From a virus: a DNA stretch of 35,190 bases. Location of the stretch: IMG/VR virus record IMGVR_UViG_3300030329_001477, positions 1 to 35,190 of that record; one strand, given 5' to 3'. Every line of letters begins with the position of its first letter. Position 1 is the first letter of the stretch. This document shows, one piece after another, positions 4,032 through 34,467 of the stretch. Under the pieces are notes generated by a model that was given only the letters and a program-made list of their open reading frames with translations, did no database searches and was not told the origin of the DNA. Made by a program: the position numbers and the translations under genes.

Positions 4032-4469
4032 AAATAGCATTATAAACAAAAAGAGGCCTACCCACCACAGGAGACCTCCTCTTGCTTGACCAGTAGATCT
4101 CAGGCTAGGGGATTCTTTTGTTAGCCATGGTCAATACACTAAATTATCACCTAATAGTCCACTGTCCACAATAGAAGAAACATTAACTCTCTATCTTAGA
4201 TCGATCCCTGACTCTTTCTTCTCTGACTTTCCACTTTTTTACCGCAAAAATGTGAAGGGGTAGACGCAATACTGGTTAGCTAGAATTCCCCCATAGGCCA
4301 CTCGCTCCGATTTTTCAAAGAGGGTGGGAGGGGCCATTCCTTGATGATCCTCATGCGCATCCTTGTCCATCGCTGGAATATTTCTTTTATCTATGGTCTG
4401 GGAAAATGGAGTGAATGGTCTTAGGTGGATTAATCTGTTTGATTGATTCACCGCCCAATCAGTACAGAG

Positions 4470-4497
4470 TTGACAAACGATGTATACTGAATGTATT
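4470..4497 (+). promoter_or_regulatory. Host sigma70-type early promoter
   Basis: A perfect -35 box TTGACA (4470-4475) is followed after 16 bases by TGTATT (4492-4497, four of six matches to TATAAT). An alternative -10 TATACT (4483-4488) is closer to consensus but only 7 bases from the -35. Transcription would start near 4504, about 36 bases before the first early gene. T7-like phages use host polymerase for their early genes, so a strong host-type promoter is expected here. Confidence 0.55.
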
Positions 4498-4512
4498 CGG
4501 AATCGCTTCCGA
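4497..4512 (+). promoter_or_regulatory. Hairpin in the early leader
   Basis: TCGGAA (4497-4502), loop TCGC, TTCCGA (4507-4512) form a perfect 6-bp stem, followed by TCTTTT. It lies between the early promoter and the first early gene. It could be a 5' stabilising hairpin or a weak attenuator, since the T run after it is short. The CCCACCACA box that recurs before early genes follows at 4531-4539. Confidence 0.4.
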
Positions 4513-4539
4513 TCTTTTGCACCTTGACAACCCACCACA

Positions 4540-4752
4540 ATGGAATCAATCACAGAAGGATTGAGTAAGATCGAGTTCGCTCTTGATGATGCAGAGAAGG
4601 TAGTCCGAGCGCTCCAAGAACTTCGCAAGGAGACAACCGAGGAGGACTGGCAAAAGATGGAGGATGTTCATAAGGGGTTCTTAATGGAACTCTTAGATGC
4701 AGCCTCTGACCTTGAAGCATCAATGGAGATGACCGACTTAGATGAAGAGTAA
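4540..4752 (+). CDS. Early acidic helical protein (70 aa), function unknown
   Basis: This is the first early gene after the promoter. The 70-residue product (MESITEGLSKIEFALDDAEK start) is strongly acidic and predicted all-helical, with heptad-like Leu/Ile/Val spacing and a DLDEE end. Small acidic early proteins of T7-like phages often bind and inhibit host enzymes or mimic DNA; this is a family-level expectation, not shown here. There is no Shine-Dalgarno sequence: a CCCACCACA box abuts the ATG directly. The final codons (GAT GAA GAG TAA) form the 5' strand of a tRNA-like stem in the following RNA element, so the gene's 3' end is under double constraint. Confidence 0.6.
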   Translation: MESITEGLSKIEFALDDAEKVVRALQELRKETTEEDWQKMEDVHKGFLMELLDAASDLEASMEMTDLDEE

Positions 4753-4832
4753 AGGCTCTTTGGGATGGTTCGACTCCATCCCTCATCATTCCCTCAATTA
4801 AGAGGGATTAAACCCACCACAAGGAGGACATT
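4741..4832 (+). promoter_or_regulatory. Structured leader A: tRNA-like minihelix, CCCTC/GAGGG hairpin and CCCACC box
   Basis: Three parts are visible. First, a 47-nt tRNA-like fold (4741-4787) has a 7-nt 5' strand GATGAAG pairing with CCTCATC (4781-4787, six of seven pairs). It then has a 16-nt middle containing AAAG-GCT-CTTT, and a T-arm GATGG-TTCGACT-CCATC whose loop fits the tRNA T-loop consensus exactly. The T-arm can instead extend to a 7-bp GGGATGG/CCATCCC stem. Second, CCCTC (4791-4795) pairs with GAGGG (4802-4806). Third comes AAACCCACCACAA (4810-4822), then Shine-Dalgarno GGAGG (4823-4827) and the ATG at 4833. The stop codon of the upstream gene (4750-4752) lies inside the fold. The same layout recurs as leader B. 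An RNA-processing or translation-control role is inferred. Confidence 0.6.
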
Positions 4833-5141
4833 ATGTCACGTTTATTCGATGCTTTAGATGAAAGGTTTGATGACCTTGATGAGTGCCGAGACGTTGCCCA
4901 GTATGGCTGCGAAATGGGGGTAAGTGGTTTCATTTATTACCATGAAACAAGGAAGTTTTTCTTTGAGCATGAAGATGAAATAGAAGCTTATCTTGACGGC
5001 ATTTATGGGGATTCAATACTTGAAGACTTAAGCAAAGAGAATAAATCAATTAACCAACTAATCAATGCGATGGTTTGGATAGTTGTTCGGGATCATTGCA
5101 GCTGTATAGCTGGTAAAGCTGAAGAACTGCAAGCGGTCTAG
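4833..5141 (+). CDS. Early protein (102 aa), function unknown
   Basis: The 102-residue product begins MSRLFDALDERFDDLDECRD. It is acidic, with many Asp and Glu in the first half (FFEHEDEIEAYLDG near residues 48-61), and contains six Cys and several Tyr. It has no signal peptide, membrane segment or recognised motif. Of the early starts it has the best Shine-Dalgarno sequence, GGAGG at 4823-4827, five bases before the ATG. It is flanked on both sides by structured leaders A and B, and its TAG stop lies at the edge of the outer stem of leader B. High acidity and early position suggest a host-takeover factor. A DNA-mimic anti-defence protein is one possibility, without direct evidence. Confidence 0.65.
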   Translation: MSRLFDALDERFDDLDECRDVAQYGCEMGVSGFIYYHETRKFFFEHEDEIEAYLDGIYGDSILEDLSKENKSINQLINAMVWIVVRDHCSCIAGKAEELQAV

Positions 5142-5242
5142 CTAATCCGTAAAAGCGGGAGGTCAGGTGCAAACCCTGACCTAGCTATTCCCTCTTAACT
5201 GAGGGAAGGGACTCAATCCCTTAAACCCACCGCAAAAACACT
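5140..5242 (+). promoter_or_regulatory. Structured leader B: second copy of the tRNA-like minihelix and hairpin architecture
   Basis: This copy has the same order and lengths as leader A but different bases. The 47-nt fold (5140-5186) has 5' strand AGCTAAT pairing with CCTAGCT (5180-5186, five of seven pairs) and a 16-nt middle with CCG...CGG. Its T-arm is TCAGG-TGCAAAC-CCTGA, a heptaloop one base off the T-loop consensus. The stem can extend to AGGTCAGG/CCTGACCT (5160-5182), closed by TAGCT/AGCTA (5139-5187). CCCTC (5190-5194) pairs with GAGGG (5201-5205). An extra hairpin AAGGG/CCCTT (5206-5222) follows, then AAACCCACCGCAA (5223-5235) and the ATG at 5243. Part of the upstream stop codon (TAG 5139-5141) is inside the stem. 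Conserved shape with changed pairs supports a selected RNA structure. Confidence 0.6.
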
Positions 5243-5413
5243 ATGAATTACATAGTTGAATCGTCTTACTATGACAATCGCTGGCAACAGGTTGAAAGCT
5301 TTATTTCTAAGCGAACAGCTATAAGGCTAGCCATTGAATGGAGCAAGACTTGGCCTGAATATAAATTCAGAGTCAAGAAAGAAGTAACCCTCCCAAATAT
5401 TGGAGGAAAGTAA
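5243..5413 (+). CDS. Small early protein (56 aa), function unknown
   Basis: The frame reads MNYIVESSYYDNRWQQVESF and ends PNIGGK. It is a basic, aromatic-rich small protein with two Trp-containing stretches (NRWQQ and IEWSKTWPEYKF). A beta-alpha-beta pattern can be guessed: a strand at residues 3-9, a helix at 23-36 (KRTAIRLAIEWSKT) and a strand at 41-49. There is no Shine-Dalgarno sequence; the ATG follows leader B and its AAACCCACCGCAA box. The TAA stop is directly followed by the next gene's ATG, consistent with coupled translation. It has no recognised family. Confidence 0.5.
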   Translation: MNYIVESSYYDNRWQQVESFISKRTAIRLAIEWSKTWPEYKFRVKKEVTLPNIGGK

Positions 5414-5572
5414 ATGAATGTCACTGCCAAATCAAACAAAGATGATGTGATTACAGCAGCCTGCGAAATAGTCGACACACAAGAGAATGTAATTAAGGAT
5501 CTGAAAGACAGAGTTAAATCCCTTGGTTATCTTCTTGCTGTCACTTTCTCTTTGCTTGTACTTACATCATGA
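5414..5572 (+). CDS. Small C-tail-anchored membrane protein (52 aa)
   Basis: The frame starts MNVTAKSNKDDVITAACEIV, continues through a charged helix (ENVIKDLKDRVKSL) and ends in one hydrophobic segment (YLLAVTFSLLVLTS, residues 39-52). This is the layout of a tail-anchored membrane protein with a cytoplasmic coiled-coil head. A GGAGG sequence inside the end of the previous gene (about 5402-5406) gives a Shine-Dalgarno sequence 7 bases upstream. The stop overlaps the next start as ATGA. An early membrane protein could take part in superinfection exclusion or host envelope control; this is inference from location and topology only. Confidence 0.5.
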   Translation: MNVTAKSNKDDVITAACEIVDTQENVIKDLKDRVKSLGYLLAVTFSLLVLTS

Positions 5573-5715
5573 CCTTACGTTTGATTATTTATCCAACGCT
5601 TGCCTTGTTAATAGGCTTAACTGTTTTCAATTCTTGTAAAAAAGAAATTGAATCCTCGCCTCTAGGCACAAGGCTTGAACGCCGCAGTTCAACAATTGAA
5701 GAGTTACTTAAATGA
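5569..5715 (+). CDS. Small signal-anchor or lipoprotein-like protein (48 aa)
   Basis: The frame reads MTLRLIIYPTLALLIGLTVF then NSCKKEIESS, ending EELLK. A hydrophobic N-terminal segment (residues 4-20) is followed by Asn-Ser-Cys23. This resembles a lipoprotein signal, but the -3 residue is Phe rather than Leu or Val, so a simple signal anchor is equally likely. The gene is coupled to the upstream tail-anchored protein by an ATGA overlap, and the two may be partners in the inner membrane. Its TGA stop directly precedes a strong terminator. Small early membrane lipoproteins of phages often block superinfection; that role is only suggested here. Confidence 0.5.
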   Translation: MTLRLIIYPTLALLIGLTVFNSCKKEIESSPLGTRLERRSSTIEELLK

Positions 5716-5739
5716 GGGAGCTTCGGCTCCCTTTTTTTT
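5716..5739 (+). terminator. Rho-independent terminator with UUCG loop
   Basis: GGGAGC (5716-5721), loop TTCG (5722-5725) and GCTCCC (5726-5731) form a perfect 6-bp stem capped by the very stable UUCG tetraloop, followed by eight T bases (5732-5739). It starts one base after the stop codon of the upstream membrane-protein gene. It should end much of the host-polymerase transcription of the first early gene cluster, making genes beyond it depend on read-through, another promoter or the phage polymerase. Confidence 0.92.
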
Positions 5740-5761
5740 ATGTAAAGAATCTATATACAAT

Positions 5762-5801
5762 CAGACGCAATCATGCGATGATTGTCTGGCTATCCCACCA
5801 C
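5762..5801 (+). promoter_or_regulatory. Long leader hairpin plus CCCACCAC box
   Basis: CAATCAT (5768-5774), loop GCG and ATGATTG (5778-5784) form a perfect 7-bp stem, extended by CAGA (5762-5765) with TCTG (5785-5788) across a 2-nt bulge. A CCCACCAC box (5794-5801) follows, two bases before the ATG at 5804. The hairpin-then-box order matches leaders A and B, but there is no T-loop here. Confidence 0.5.
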
Positions 5802-5803
5802 GC

Positions 5804-5977
5804 ATGAATCCAAAGGATTATATTCCGAGTCGATACCAACAAGACAAAGAAATGTTCAATGCTTTTTGGCGTTGGCATAGGGATAGGTATGGCACCGAAC
5901 CAACCACTCAATTATCTATTGTGTGCTGCGACTTTGCCTTACACCTACAAAGAAACCCACCCAGCTTATCTAAATGA
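5804..5977 (+). CDS. Small early protein (57 aa), function unknown
   Basis: The product starts MNPKDYIPSRYQQDKEMFNA and continues FWRWHRDRYGTEPTTQ, ending NPPSLSK. It is rich in aromatic and basic residues, with two adjacent Cys (IVCCDFAL). The open frame extends upstream to a TTG at 5675, but that part would be translated through the terminator at 5716-5739. The first ATG after it (5804), preceded by the CCCACCAC box, is therefore preferred. There is no Shine-Dalgarno sequence. The stop overlaps the next start as ATGA. It has no recognised family. Its position after the terminator suggests lower or later expression than the first cluster. Confidence 0.5.
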   Translation: MNPKDYIPSRYQQDKEMFNAFWRWHRDRYGTEPTTQLSIVCCDFALHLQRNPPSLSK

Positions 5978-16437: not shown

Positions 16438-17403
16438 ATGGCCAACATGACCGTTTCCAGGCTCGGCCTGGTAAACGCAACTGGTACTTCTTATGATGCC
16501 TTGTTCCTCAAGGTTTTCAGTGGAGAGGTACTGTCTGCGTTCCGTAAAGCTACGGTGTTCGAGAGCTTACATACTGTAAGAACTATCTCATCAGGCAAAT
16601 CAGCACAATTTCCAATTATTGGACTTTCCAGTACTGGATACCATACGCCAGGCACCCAGCTGACAGGCAATGCCATCAAACATGCTGAGGCTACAGTCAA
16701 CATTGACGACAAACTTGTATCACAAGTATTCGTCGCAGATATTGACGAGGCCAAGAATCATTATGATGTAAGATCTCAGTATTCAACTGAGATGGGCAAC
16801 GCATTAGCTTATACTTTTGACAAGAATGTAGCTGCCACTATTGCACAAGCTGCACGTACATCTACCAACTTCAATACTGACCTCCCTGGAGGTACTCGTA
16901 TTAAGATTGTTGCTGCAAACAAAGCTGCTATTACAGGTGCAAACCTTGTAGCTGCTATGTGGTCAGCAGCTGAACAGATGGACATTAACAATGTTCCAGC
17001 TGAAGATCGTACTCTTGTCTTAGGTCCAACTGAGTATTACAAGTTAGCCCAAACCACTGACGTTCTCAATAGAGATTGGGGTGGTTCTGGAGCATACGCC
17101 GAGGGATCTGTCTTGAAGGTTGCTGGTATCAGCATCGTCAAGTCCAACCATCTACCAACTACAAACCGTTCAGCAGTAACGGGTGAGAACAACACTTATC
17201 ACGCTGACTACACTGACAGCGTTGGCCTTGTGTTCAACAAGCAAGCTGTTGGTACTGTGAAGTTGATGGATCTCAAGATGGAGCAAACCGGAGCTGATGT
17301 TCATGCCCTATGGCAGGGAACATTCATGGTTGGTTCCATGGCTCATGGTACAGGCGTTCTACGTCCTGACTGTGCAATCGAAATCTACTGGGCTACCAGT
17401 TAA
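16438..17403 (+). CDS. Major capsid protein (T7 gp10-like)
   Basis: The 321-residue protein should have the HK97 fold and build the icosahedral head; T7 gp10A has 345 residues. The N-terminal region (FLKVFSGEVLSAFRKATVFE, near residues 24-43) and IDDKLVSQVFVADIDEAKNHY (near residues 90-110) match conserved T7-type capsid patches. The C-terminal P-domain strands end in CAIEIYWATS. There is no readthrough or frameshift extension like T7 gp10B, because a terminator hairpin follows 10 bases after the stop. It is preceded by a structured leader and followed by a terminator, which suggests its expression is controlled separately from the tail genes. Confidence 0.94.
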   Translation: MANMTVSRLGLVNATGTSYDALFLKVFSGEVLSAFRKATVFESLHTVRTISSGKSAQFPIIGLSSTGYHTPGTQLTGNAIKHAEATVNIDDKLVSQVFVADIDEAKNHYDVRSQYSTEMGNALAYTFDKNVAATIAQAARTSTNFNTDLPGGTRIKIVAANKAAITGANLVAAMWSAAEQMDINNVPAEDRTLVLGPTEYYKLAQTTDVLNRDWGGSGAYAEGSVLKVAGISIVKSNHLPTTNRSAVTGENNTYHADYTDSVGLVFNKQAVGTVKLMDLKMEQTGADVHALWQGTFMVGSMAHGTGVLRPDCAIEIYWATS

Positions 17404-20497: not shown

Positions 20498-20961
20498 GTA
20501 AGTTTCATTGTCGTCCTTCAACAGTTGCTGACGTTCAAACTATTGCTGAAAATATGAGGACAGAAGATGTTGATGAGATAAAAGCACAGTCTGGAAATAC
20601 ACCAAGGGAAGGATTATTTTTTTGTTACTTTATGTCCAAGCCGTGCGTGACTATTGTTAGCCGCCATGGTAATCCTATTGGAATGTGGGGAGTCGTTCCG
20701 CTAGATAACACAGCGGGAAGAATATGGATGTTAGGTTGCGAAGCAATGCTCAAAGATGCAAGCGATAAATACAATTTTCTGAGAGAATCAAGAAAAGAGT
20801 TAGCTAAACTTCATGGTCAATACCCATTATTGACTAATGTAGTTGATGCACGAAACACCGTTCACGTTCGATGGATTCGATGGATGGGTTTCACTTTTAT
20901 CAAAAAGCATCCACAATGGGGACCAGAACACCGTATGTTTTATGAATTCGTGAGGATCTAA
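20458..20961 (+). CDS. Internal virion protein A-like / GNAT-like protein (T7 gp13-like)
   Basis: The product (167 residues from ATG 20458) shows FHCRPSTVADVQTIAENMR, then RHGNPIGMWGVVPLDNTAGRI and a C-terminal VDARNTVHVRWIRWMGFTFI stretch. This follows the acetyltransferase-like pattern of the T7 gp13 family: an N-terminal strand-helix, a core strand next to a GMWG turn, and a final helix-strand with a WIRWMGF motif. T7 gp13 (138 residues) is an internal virion or morphogenesis protein. Position between tail tubular B and the gp14-like gene supports this. The frame also has a TTG at 20437; the ATG at 20458 is preferred, though no good ribosome site is seen. Whether it binds acetyl-CoA is unclear. 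Confidence 0.75.
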   Translation: MGRVVSHQSEETVGKFHCRPSTVADVQTIAENMRTEDVDEIKAQSGNTPREGLFFCYFMSKPCVTIVSRHGNPIGMWGVVPLDNTAGRIWMLGCEAMLKDASDKYNFLRESRKELAKLHGQYPLLTNVVDARNTVHVRWIRWMGFTFIKKHPQWGPEHRMFYEFVRI

Positions 20962-31789: not shown

Positions 31790-34467
31790 TGGCCTACGCC
31801 CTACACATTTACACCAGCACTACCGCTGGACAAGTAGATTTCCAGTTCACCTTTCCTTACATCAAGGAAGAACACGTAAAACTCTATGTTAATTACACAG
31901 AGATCACTTACTCCGTTGCGACTAGAGGTGCAGGTGTTGCTGGATTTCAGATCTATACCGCTGGTGGCAACACTTACGCTCGCCTAAACGACACTAATGG
32001 CCTTGCTTCTGCTAATACCCGTGTCGAAGTTAAAAGGATTTCTTCCCTAGCAGGTGTTCTTGTTGACTATGCAGATGGTTCAACTCTCGTTGCAAGCGAC
32101 TTAGATACCAGCAACCTTCAGCACTTATATATTTCACAAGAAGTCGATGACGCTCTAAAGCAGGGTGTATCTATTGACCCTACTACTGGTCTTCCAAGCC
32201 TAGGCAACCAAAAGTTAACAAAAGTTGCTGATCCAACAGCAGCACAGGATGCAGCGACAAAGAACTATGTAGATACAACAACTCAACCAGTAGATGCAGA
32301 GTTAACAGAACTCGCAACAATGAGTTCAGGAACAGCTTCTTCTCTTGCTGATCTAACTAATACAGAAGTCCAGATCCTAGATGGCGCAACAGTTACTACT
32401 GATGAATTAAATAAATTAGATGGAGTAACTGCTACGACAGCAGAGATTAACTATGTCGATGGTGTTACTTCTAATGTCCAGACTCAGCTAGATGCAAAGC
32501 AACCATTAGATGCAGAGCTAACAGAACTAGCAACTATGAGTTCTGATACAGCCGCTGCATTGGCTGATCTAACTCAAGCTGAAGTACAAATACTTGATGG
32601 TGCAACTCTTTCTACTGCTGAACTGAATTTTGTAGATGGAGTTACTTCTGCTCTGCAAACACAATTAGATGCCAAGCAACCATTAGATGCTGACTTAACT
32701 AATCTTTCTAGTTGTCAAACTGGAGCAGCAGCAAACATTGCATTACTGACATCAGGTGAAGTTGCAATCTTAGACGGAGCAACTCTTTCTACTGCTGAAC
32801 TGAATACCTTATCTGGAATCACTTCATCAACAGGAGAACTAAATAAATTAGATGGTGTTACTTCTACTACTGCAAACTTAAACGTAGTAAGTGGCATGAC
32901 TAAAGCCACATCTCTTACAAGTAATAGCGATACAGAATTACCAACATCAAAAGCGGTAGCAGATCATGTAACTGGTGTTGTTAATGCCCTTGGTGGATTT
33001 GTTGCAATTAATGGGCCTACTAACTTCCCTGCCACACAACCAGCTCAAGGTGTAGTTGTCAGTATTAAGGATGTTGGATCAGGATTTACAACTAGCTCTA
33101 ATGAAATAACTATTACTAATGGAGCTGGTACAAATAAGAATGTAAGAATTACAGGCTTTCCTTCTGAATATGCAGCAGCGACACTAACAGATGATACTGG
33201 CTTACAAGTTACATCTGATATAACAAATAGTACAAGTGGAACACCTGCTGTTCATAGATACGTTTATCACAAACAACTAGCAAAAGAAAGTGACGTTAAA
33301 GCACTGAGCGATGACATCAATAACTTTAATGAGAGATATAGAGTAGGTGGTTCTAATCCTTCTAGTGACAACCATGCTGGTGATTTATTTTATAACACTG
33401 GCACTGACAAGATGCTGGTTAGAAATGCAGCTAATAACGCATGGGAAGAAGTTCAATCTATTGGTGAGTTCTTTATAAATACAATCTCAAGTGCAGGCAG
33501 TGGAAGTGATTCTCCTCCTGGTGGTAGTGCAACATTTAATGGAACAGCTAGGAAGTTTACTCTTAGTAATCCACCAAGTTTTGCACAACAATTAATTGTA
33601 AGTATTAACGGTGTTATTCAAAAGCCAAATTCAGGTAGTAGCTTTCCATCAGAAGGCTTTAGTCTCAATGGATCTGTTATTCAATTAGCTGCTGCTCCAG
33701 CTACAAATGCTCCGTTCTTTATTATTACAATTGGATCATCAGTTAACATTGGAACACCATCAGCAGGGACAGTTAATTTAGCTAAGTTAAATACAAGTAA
33801 TACAGGAAGTACAGGCCAGTTCTTAAAGAAAGATGGATCGACTGAAGGTATTGGCTGGGCTGATGCTGGTGATGCAGATAAAATTACCGTAGGTGATACA
33901 ACTGCTGAAGTTACAGATACAGGTAGTAATGGAACATTTAAAATTACACTTGATGGTGCTGCAACCGAATCATTTAGCGTAACTGATACGGCCCTTAACC
34001 TAGGTAGAGCTGGAAGCAATACTGCTAACAGTGACCTAAACCTATCTGGAGCTATTAAATTTGGATTCACTAATGCAGGAACATATCCATATATAAGGAC
34101 AGATGGATCAGGCAATCTTGAAATTACAGGTGCTTATAACGCTGGTGGCTCAATAGGAACTGTCTGGACATTTGGTGGTTATCAAGGTACACACGTTTCT
34201 GGTGGAAATATCAATCCTTCAGCAGATAGTACTTATAGCTTAGGAACTAACTCTGTACGCTGGACAAATGTATATGCAGACAACCTTTACGGAGATGGAT
34301 CAAACCTAACAGGGGTAGCCGCTGCTTCTGCTGATGGAACAATGTATAAGAATACATTAGCGATCAGTAACGACACAACGATAGCTGCTACGGAAGGAGC
34401 ACATTCAGTTGGCCCAATTACAAATAATGCTACCGTTACTGTTAACGGAACCTGGGTTATCAGCTAG
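31789..34467 (+). CDS. Tail fibre protein (T7 gp17-like N-terminus)
   Basis: The 892-residue protein should bind the host surface. Residues 1-150 match the T7 gp17 tail-attachment domain (VDFQFTFPYIKEEHVKLYVN, and DLDTSNLQHLYISQEVDDAL near residues 104-123). Residues about 160-400 contain imperfect repeats with an LDAELTELATMSS and VTSxxQTQLDAKQP pattern, likely a triple-helical or beta shaft. The rest is Ser/Thr/Gly-rich beta structure ending in TVTVNGTWVIS, the kind of end seen in marine phage fibres. The host-recognition tip may be on this or the following fibre-like proteins. The start overlaps the end of the giant internal protein by one base. Confidence 0.9.
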   Translation: MAYALHIYTSTTAGQVDFQFTFPYIKEEHVKLYVNYTEITYSVATRGAGVAGFQIYTAGGNTYARLNDTNGLASANTRVEVKRISSLAGVLVDYADGSTLVASDLDTSNLQHLYISQEVDDALKQGVSIDPTTGLPSLGNQKLTKVADPTAAQDAATKNYVDTTTQPVDAELTELATMSSGTASSLADLTNTEVQILDGATVTTDELNKLDGVTATTAEINYVDGVTSNVQTQLDAKQPLDAELTELATMSSDTAAALADLTQAEVQILDGATLSTAELNFVDGVTSALQTQLDAKQPLDADLTNLSSCQTGAAANIALLTSGEVAILDGATLSTAELNTLSGITSSTGELNKLDGVTSTTANLNVVSGMTKATSLTSNSDTELPTSKAVADHVTGVVNALGGFVAINGPTNFPATQPAQGVVVSIKDVGSGFTTSSNEITITNGAGTNKNVRITGFPSEYAAATLTDDTGLQVTSDITNSTSGTPAVHRYVYHKQLAKESDVKALSDDINNFNERYRVGGSNPSSDNHAGDLFYNTGTDKMLVRNAANNAWEEVQSIGEFFINTISSAGSGSDSPPGGSATFNGTARKFTLSNPPSFAQQLIVSINGVIQKPNSGSSFPSEGFSLNGSVIQLAAAPATNAPFFIITIGSSVNIGTPSAGTVNLAKLNTSNTGSTGQFLKKDGSTEGIGWADAGDADKITVGDTTAEVTDTGSNGTFKITLDGAATESFSVTDTALNLGRAGSNTANSDLNLSGAIKFGFTNAGTYPYIRTDGSGNLEITGAYNAGGSIGTVWTFGGYQGTHVSGGNINPSADSTYSLGTNSVRWTNVYADNLYGDGSNLTGVAAASADGTMYKNTLAISNDTTIAATEGAHSVGPITNNATVTVNGTWVIS
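32293..32700 (+). repeat. Imperfect tandem repeat in the fibre shaft
   Basis: The stretch starting GATGCAGAG recurs at 32293 and 32509 (216 bp, 72 codons) and, more diverged, at 32686 (177 bp, 59 codons). The shorter unit lacks 13 codons corresponding to the ELNKLDGVTATTA segment of the first. Recombination between copies could change the fibre length in frame. Confidence 0.7.

Follow-up and report, generated by a model that had tools for sequence, protein, structure and literature searches.

A tRNA-like RNA element at gene junctions of T7-like cyanophages and its possible role in intercistronic processing

The early region and its two tRNA-like elements

The window, by which we mean the whole 35,190-base viral record, derives from a T7-like phage with family matches to RNA polymerase, primase/helicase, portal, capsid and tail proteins. 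Its RNA polymerase shares 66-67% identity with that of the Prochlorococcus phages P-SCSP1. Two tRNA-like elements of 47 nt lie among its early genes, with the following features:

4540..4752, + strand: early gene, 70 aa, without a family match; its stop codon lies within copy 1
4741..4787, + strand: tRNA-like element, copy 1 (T-loop type TTC, insert loop GG); from the fold and model R1
4741..4745, + strand: outer ('acceptor') stem of copy 1, 5' strand GATGA, pairing with TCATC at 4783-4787; fold and helix covariation
4746..4761, + strand: D-arm-like hairpin of copy 1, AGAG-UAAAGG-CUCU-UU; fold
4762..4782, + strand: T-arm of copy 1, GGGATGG-TTCGACT-CCATCCC; fold
4788..4790, + strand: discriminator-like A and UU, copy 1; position-specific composition, with a putative RNase Z cut after 4788
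4790..4807, + strand: downstream hairpin of copy 1, TCCCTC-AATTAA-GAGGGA; fold; proposed 5' end of the downstream message
4810..4818, + strand: unpaired leader AAACCCACC after copy 1
4833..5141, + strand: early gene, 102 aa, PHROG 27501/2543, unknown function; an element on either side
5140..5186, + strand: tRNA-like element, copy 2 (T-loop type TGC, insert loop AG); fold, model R1 and orthologue alignment
5145..5160, + strand: D-arm-like hairpin of copy 2, A-UCCG-UAAAAG-CGGG-A; fold and orthologue alignment
5161..5181, + strand: T-arm of copy 2, GGTCAGG-TGCAAAC-CCTGACC; fold and orthologue alignment
5187..5189, + strand: discriminator-like A and UU, copy 2; position-specific composition, with a putative RNase Z cut
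5188..5207, + strand: downstream hairpin of copy 2, TTCCCTC-TTAACT-GAGGGAA; fold
5206..5222, + strand: extra hairpin AAGGGACTCAATCCCTT, after copy 2 only; fold
5224..5231, + strand: unpaired leader AACCCACC after copy 2

An earlier note on this DNA had described two 47-nt elements with matched spacing; both are present, at 4741-4787 and 5140-5186, and fold as it described. The internal partition has been redrawn. Instead of segments of 7, 16, 17 and 7 nt, each element opens with a 5-nt outer strand and a 16-nt insert; next comes a 7-bp stem capped by a 7-nt T-loop, and a 5-nt 3' strand completes the outer stem. The insert had been taken as a plain middle segment and is itself a hairpin (AGAG-UAAAGG-CUCU in copy 1; UCCG-UAAAAG-CGGG in copy 2). 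Both copies fold as three-way junctions of a 5-bp outer stem, this D-arm-like hairpin and a 7-bp stem carrying a tRNA T-loop. The outer and inner helices are unbroken on the 3' side and together measure 12 bp, or 13 in copy 2 when T5139-A5187, by which its outer stem can be extended, is counted. The z-scores of the folds against dinucleotide shuffles are -3.6 and -3.4.

The 5' parts of both elements overlap the ends of the upstream genes. UAA at 4750-4752, in the insert loop of copy 1, is the stop codon of the 4540-4752 ORF, and the TAG of the 4833-5141 ORF straddles the 5' end of copy 2. On the downstream side the proposed matched spacing holds in part. CCCTC-6-GAGGG follows both copies at equal distance, starting at 4791 and 5190. 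The spacing of AAACCCACC is unequal because the extra hairpin of copy 2, at about 5206-5222, intervenes. The 102-aa early protein is common among T7-like cyanophages and has weaker matches in Vibrio, Enterococcus and Brevibacillus phages.

An RNA family and its tRNA-like elbow

Searches were made with a descriptor specifying only a loose T-loop and two stems, and with covariance models. The descriptor finds 2 hits in the window against about 0.02 in shuffles. In the window and five cyanophage genomes its hits number 14, all of them on the coding strand and none opposite, against about 0.24 in shuffles. Only one of the 14, with a 32-nt insert, lies deep inside a gene (S-TIP37 32582-32644) and is taken as a chance match. 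A covariance model, R1, built from 12 relatives and no window sequence, recovers both window copies (copy 1, 42.4 bits, E 2e-11; copy 2, 29 bits, E 1.7e-6). R1 gives 66 matches in 784 kb and R2 gives 65 in 342 kb, every one on the coding strand; the two surveys amount to 1.1 Mb with partly shared source contigs. The related contigs are metagenomic and often fragments; the copies are akin to one another, and the counts are not independent.

Elements number four in P-SSP7, four in S-SBP1, three in S-TIP37, two in Syn5 and one in KBS-P-1A. Those of P-SSP7 are at 603-647, 1006-1044, 2563-2603 and 20632-20678, and one of those in S-TIP37, at 20513-20558, lies upstream of gene 10. They measure about 38-48 nt across the family, with several copies per genome. 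P60 has a weak match (E 0.33) just ahead of its capsid gene, apparently with an extra arm. The element is absent from the controls T7, pelagiphages HTVC019P and HTVC011P, P-SCSP1q, S-CBP4, Pf-WMP3 and the first 50 kb of P-SSM2, and also from contigs L009 and L011-L013. An Rfam scan at the gathering threshold reports no family in the window, and a relaxed search of 4400-5800 gives only chance-level hits there. The earlier note knew of no described element of this kind, and a search of open-licence papers likewise found no description. The elements apparently constitute an undescribed RNA family of T7-like cyanophages.

The element has no anticodon arm, and ARAGORN finds no tRNA gene in the window or in the annotated cyanophage genomes that bear elements. 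A tRNA-Trp call over an element in contig L002 looks spurious; a normal three-arm copy lies there.

The helices are supported by compensatory change. An alignment of five gapless copy-2 orthologues (A4; four of them distinct) has 100% pairing, with double changes in 6 of 16 pairs. Among 89 distinct copies, double changes occur at all 15 model stem pairs. They score 0.79 for covariation, where shuffles score 0.17 and slid partners no more than 0.10. This larger alignment, based on equal-length copies with the remainder aligned by covariance model, was fitted to the structure, and the A4 alignment and the descriptor set are therefore the cleaner evidence. A lack of compensatory changes in related phages had been named in advance as grounds for abandoning the element; the changes are there, and the element survived.

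A mutual-information scan recovers the helices first. The highest non-helical pair joins a position of the D-hairpin loop to the second position of the T-loop (z 10.6), with G-T in 32 copies and A-G in 24. By loop class, TTC occurs with GG in 48 copies and TGC with AG in 31, with no crossovers among these 79; some of the copies outside the 79 are unclassifiable or lack a T-loop. The window carries one copy of each elbow type. On the capsid-protein tree the T-loop type switches at least 11 times, and the partner loop matches at the tips. These switches possibly include exchange by recombination. The sequences of L036 and L038 are nearly the same and differ by such a switch. The reading of the element as a minimal acceptor plus T-stem had overlooked this D-arm-like hairpin and the covariation of its loop with the T-loop.

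In tRNA numbering the covarying loop pair corresponds to the contact 18:55, beside a constant G19-C56, and the two would dock the D-loop on the T-loop as in a tRNA elbow. The T-loop consensus T54, C56, R57 and A58 is present in 86/87, 87/87, 87/87 and 86/87 distinct copies, figures that in part reflect the search criteria. Neither the downstream U nor the D-loop partner was among the criteria of the descriptor; the later model alignments do include the insert. The tRNA likeness is supported, at the level of sequence, down to a tertiary contact.

These data bear on whether the elements are functionless remnants of tRNA genes or attachment sites. Some T7-like cyanophages have attP sites identical to host tRNA-Leu (PMC8776855), and P60 bears the larger version with an extra arm. 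Against such an origin stand the strong compensatory evolution with conserved loops, the several unlike copies per genome, and the R2 matches in host genomes, which are weak and of which 8 of 9 checked are tRNA genes. The covariation largely refutes the remnant reading, which we reject as highly improbable.

Larger, nearly cloverleaf versions with an extra hairpin at the position of the anticodon arm occur in P60 (L111, about 17030-17090), L005 (5273-5331) and L007 (5653-5711). They may represent evolutionary steps linking tRNA and the mini element.

Gene junctions and candidate processing enzymes

The elements sit at gene junctions on the coding strand, as do the t-elements of polycistronic transcripts; the arrangement of the genes suggests that they are co-transcribed. 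One recurrent setting is the junctions around the 102-aa early gene family, for which the window gene at 4833..5141 served as anchor in finding homologous junctions. The other, seen in 45 of 72 metagenomic loci, is a position 112-232 nt ahead of the major capsid gene; the 45 leave out L082, an outlier at 421 nt (scripted count 46). A transcription terminator was considered and rejected, as the element has no U-tract and is placed within co-directional genes.

The position upstream of gene starts, that of the capsid gene included, recalls the yjdF riboswitch leader, and a tRNA-like fold ahead of a start codon might draw ribosomes to the downstream gene. Translation rose 2-6.3 fold with tRNA-like leaders in the yjdF study (PMC9142559). 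However, most copies lie 33-170 nt from the next start codon, as a rule with a further structure in the interval, and an enhancer of translation predicts neither the overlap with the upstream stop codon nor the U signature on the 3' side. We regard this function as improbable.

That overlap is widespread. In 30 of the 37 copies with a nearby gene end, the upstream stop codon lies inside the element or straddles its 5' end. The earlier note had proposed RNase P cuts at 4741 and 5140. The elbow is a docking site for both RNase P and RNase Z (PMC4810234), and together with the 11-13 bp stack it resembles what RNase P measures (PMC4919913, PMC4810234). RNase P RNA is present in 3/3 host genomes, and there is precedent in the cutting of some mRNAs and phage RNAs by RNase P (PMC11143913). 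Host RNase P could accordingly read the elbow and stack and cut the 5' end of the element, alone or with RNase Z, freeing it as a small RNA. But because the stop codon lies in or straddles the element, such a cut would deprive the upstream message of it, for the two window copies and at those 30 of 37 junctions, and leave non-stop mRNAs; a cut on the 3' side would not. This argument concerns plausibility in vivo rather than binding. Cleavage by RNase P is in our judgment decidedly unlikely.

The marks of a processing site were found on the 3' side instead, and they are those of RNase Z. The discriminator-like base is A in 52 of 86 copies, UU occurs within the next four bases in 71 of 86, and a U lies no more than 2 nt after the discriminator in 85 of 86, against 48% at random positions. 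CCA is encoded in 0/86, which also speaks against RNase P. The B. subtilis enzyme accepts tRNAs that lack CCA, and a U so placed stimulates it about 200-fold (PMC10100781); the elements follow this rule, which comes from Bacillus and not from cyanobacteria. The stack departs from the 7-bp acceptor on a 5-bp T-stem of an RNase Z substrate; it is mostly split 5+6 or 5+7, with a total of 11-13 bp that is near 12 and is 11 in many copies. RNase Z is encoded in 6/6 host genomes. We consider RNase Z a better candidate than RNase P.

Homologous junctions differ among relatives in what they carry. The earlier note had argued for a processing role by analogy with the RNase III hairpins of T7, and the same junction does bear either the element or a long rod hairpin, depending on the relative. 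Among the homologous junctions without an element, many have a long rod with an internal loop and others have no clear structure. The element itself is a three-way junction and not the long double-stranded rod of a T7 RNase III site. In L005, a tRNA-Asp shares the early junction series with the mini element, and a hairpin closely follows the tRNA-Asp too. A stable hairpin usually lies 2-4 nt past the element at early junctions. Counting all copies, 56 of 88 have a simple strong hairpin downstream, as do 33% of random positions. Next to the capsid gene, the structure after the element has internal loops.

From the position of the stop codon, the 3' U pattern, the host RNase Z and the tRNA-Asp and rod junctions, we infer that RNase Z punctuates the mRNA in the manner known for tRNAs. 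Intercistronic processing by the host enzyme is the best explanation that we can offer, with a probability of roughly one half. Position and context lend support to a processing role. Computation has established the fold and its conservation, the covariation of the elbow, placement at junctions on the coding strand, the U signature on the 3' side, the replacement by rods in relatives and the presence of host RNase Z. Each element would be a cis-acting RNA within a polycistronic phage transcript. It would imitate the tRNA elbow, with D-loop docked on T-loop, on a stack of acceptor and T stems 11-13 bp long that lacks the anticodon arm, and so give the end of a gene the look of a pre-tRNA without CCA. 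The RNase Z of the host would dock on the elbow and cut just past the discriminator base, ahead of UU. The upstream message would keep its stop codon and gain a compact, tRNA-like, exonuclease-resistant 3' end to which CCA might be added. The downstream message would begin with a short 5' tail and a hairpin shielding its 5'-phosphate end. The phage would in this way punctuate its operon with tRNA mimics where relatives have RNase-III-like rods.

Several observations weigh against RNase Z. In addition to the Bacillus origin of the U rule and the unusual division of the stack, the strong downstream hairpin is far from universal in the counts given above, and the related cyanophages P-SCSP1q and S-CBP4 manage without the element. 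Lying between two stable folds, the UU linker might just as well be a site for RNase E. The elbow fold might then block 3'-5' exonucleases and the hairpin guard the 5' end, with RNase E cutting the AUU linker and no tRNA enzyme taking part. The linker is A/U-rich, and host RNase E is raised by P-SSP7 during infection (PMC9692554). Such a barrier leaves unexplained, however, why the elbow contacts (18:55, G19-C56) are kept through repeated switches and why a real tRNA occurs in the same junction series, and we think it unlikely.

A fuller version of the RNase Z proposal is tentative and somewhat less probable than an even chance. In it the phage punctuates both early and capsid operons with minimal tRNA mimics (acceptor, D-arm and T-arm) that recruit host RNase Z. 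The CCA-less 3' ends would be extendable by the host CCA-adding enzyme, the mimics would be exchangeable in evolution with real tRNAs and RNase III rods, and the elbow would undergo coupled switches between G18-U55 and A18-G55.

Related systems and neighbouring structures

Plant mitochondrial t-elements and mitochondrial 'tRNA punctuation' also place tRNAs or tRNA-like structures between or after genes and set mRNA ends through tRNA-processing enzymes. Those systems are organellar, whereas the phage element is carried by a bacterial virus, lacks the anticodon arm and has its D-arm hairpin fused directly to the T-arm; its cleavage is a prediction. The mascRNA/MALAT1-type elements likewise have a tRNA-like fold and make the 3' end of another RNA through tRNA enzymes. 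Unlike the phage element, they are eukaryotic, nuclear, cut by RNase P and cloverleaf-like. The tRNA-like domain of tmRNA and viral 3' tRNA-like structures (TYMV) share a D-loop/T-loop elbow without a normal anticodon arm, but these lie at RNA ends and are aminoacylated, while the phage element is internal to mRNA, CCA-less and multi-copy. The RNase III sites of the T7 early region are processing structures between T7-like early genes and are alike in position and presumed purpose; the fold differs and, if our reading is right, so does the enzyme. The yjdF riboswitch is also an mRNA leader with loops acting as D-loop and T-loop. It is a ligand-controlled translation switch beside the Shine-Dalgarno sequence, in contrast to the phage element at the end of the preceding gene.

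The family appears new and occurs in the best-studied marine cyanophages (P-SSP7, Syn5, S-TIP37), and the covariation of the elbow is strong enough for sequences by themselves to indicate a tertiary contact. Should the mechanism prove true, mitochondrial-style tRNA punctuation would operate in a bacterial virus in place of RNase III sites, and the family would supply minimal RNase Z/RNase P substrates from nature. The G18-U55 / A18-G55 switch offers natural material for the study of the tRNA elbow. Direct testing is feasible, as the hosts are cultured and a deletion method is available for S-TIP37 and Syn5 (PMC8776855).

Other structures were noted in these regions. A real tRNA-Asp (GTC) lies within the early operon of uncultured phages (L005 6323-6396; L120 3400-3473), in the junction series to which the mini element belongs. 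Rods of about 7 bp, an internal loop and 5-8 bp occur at early junctions of L018 (2890-2960), L015 (1700-1770), L014 (430-500), L130, L152 and others; judged by shape, they are candidate RNase III sites of cyanophages. Past the element, two more conserved structures lie in the leader of the capsid gene, at L023 20679-20780 and at the corresponding place in L036, L072, L084 and others. One is a hairpin that has internal loops and contains GGATACC; the other is GTCTAGACGGTGGGATAGAC.

In the window, an intrinsic-terminator-like hairpin GAGGGAGCTTCGGCTCCC followed by a T-run lies at 5712-5745, ahead of the RNA polymerase region; this region has a weak, sub-threshold match to the Rfam L20_leader. 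The sequence AACCCACC(A) is repeated ahead of early start codons in the window (4529-4536, 4811-4818, 5224-5231 and 5954-5961, and with one mismatch at 5792-5799) and in relatives. Matches with at most one mismatch number 32 against 17 in shuffles, and the repeat could be a leader or start-site motif.
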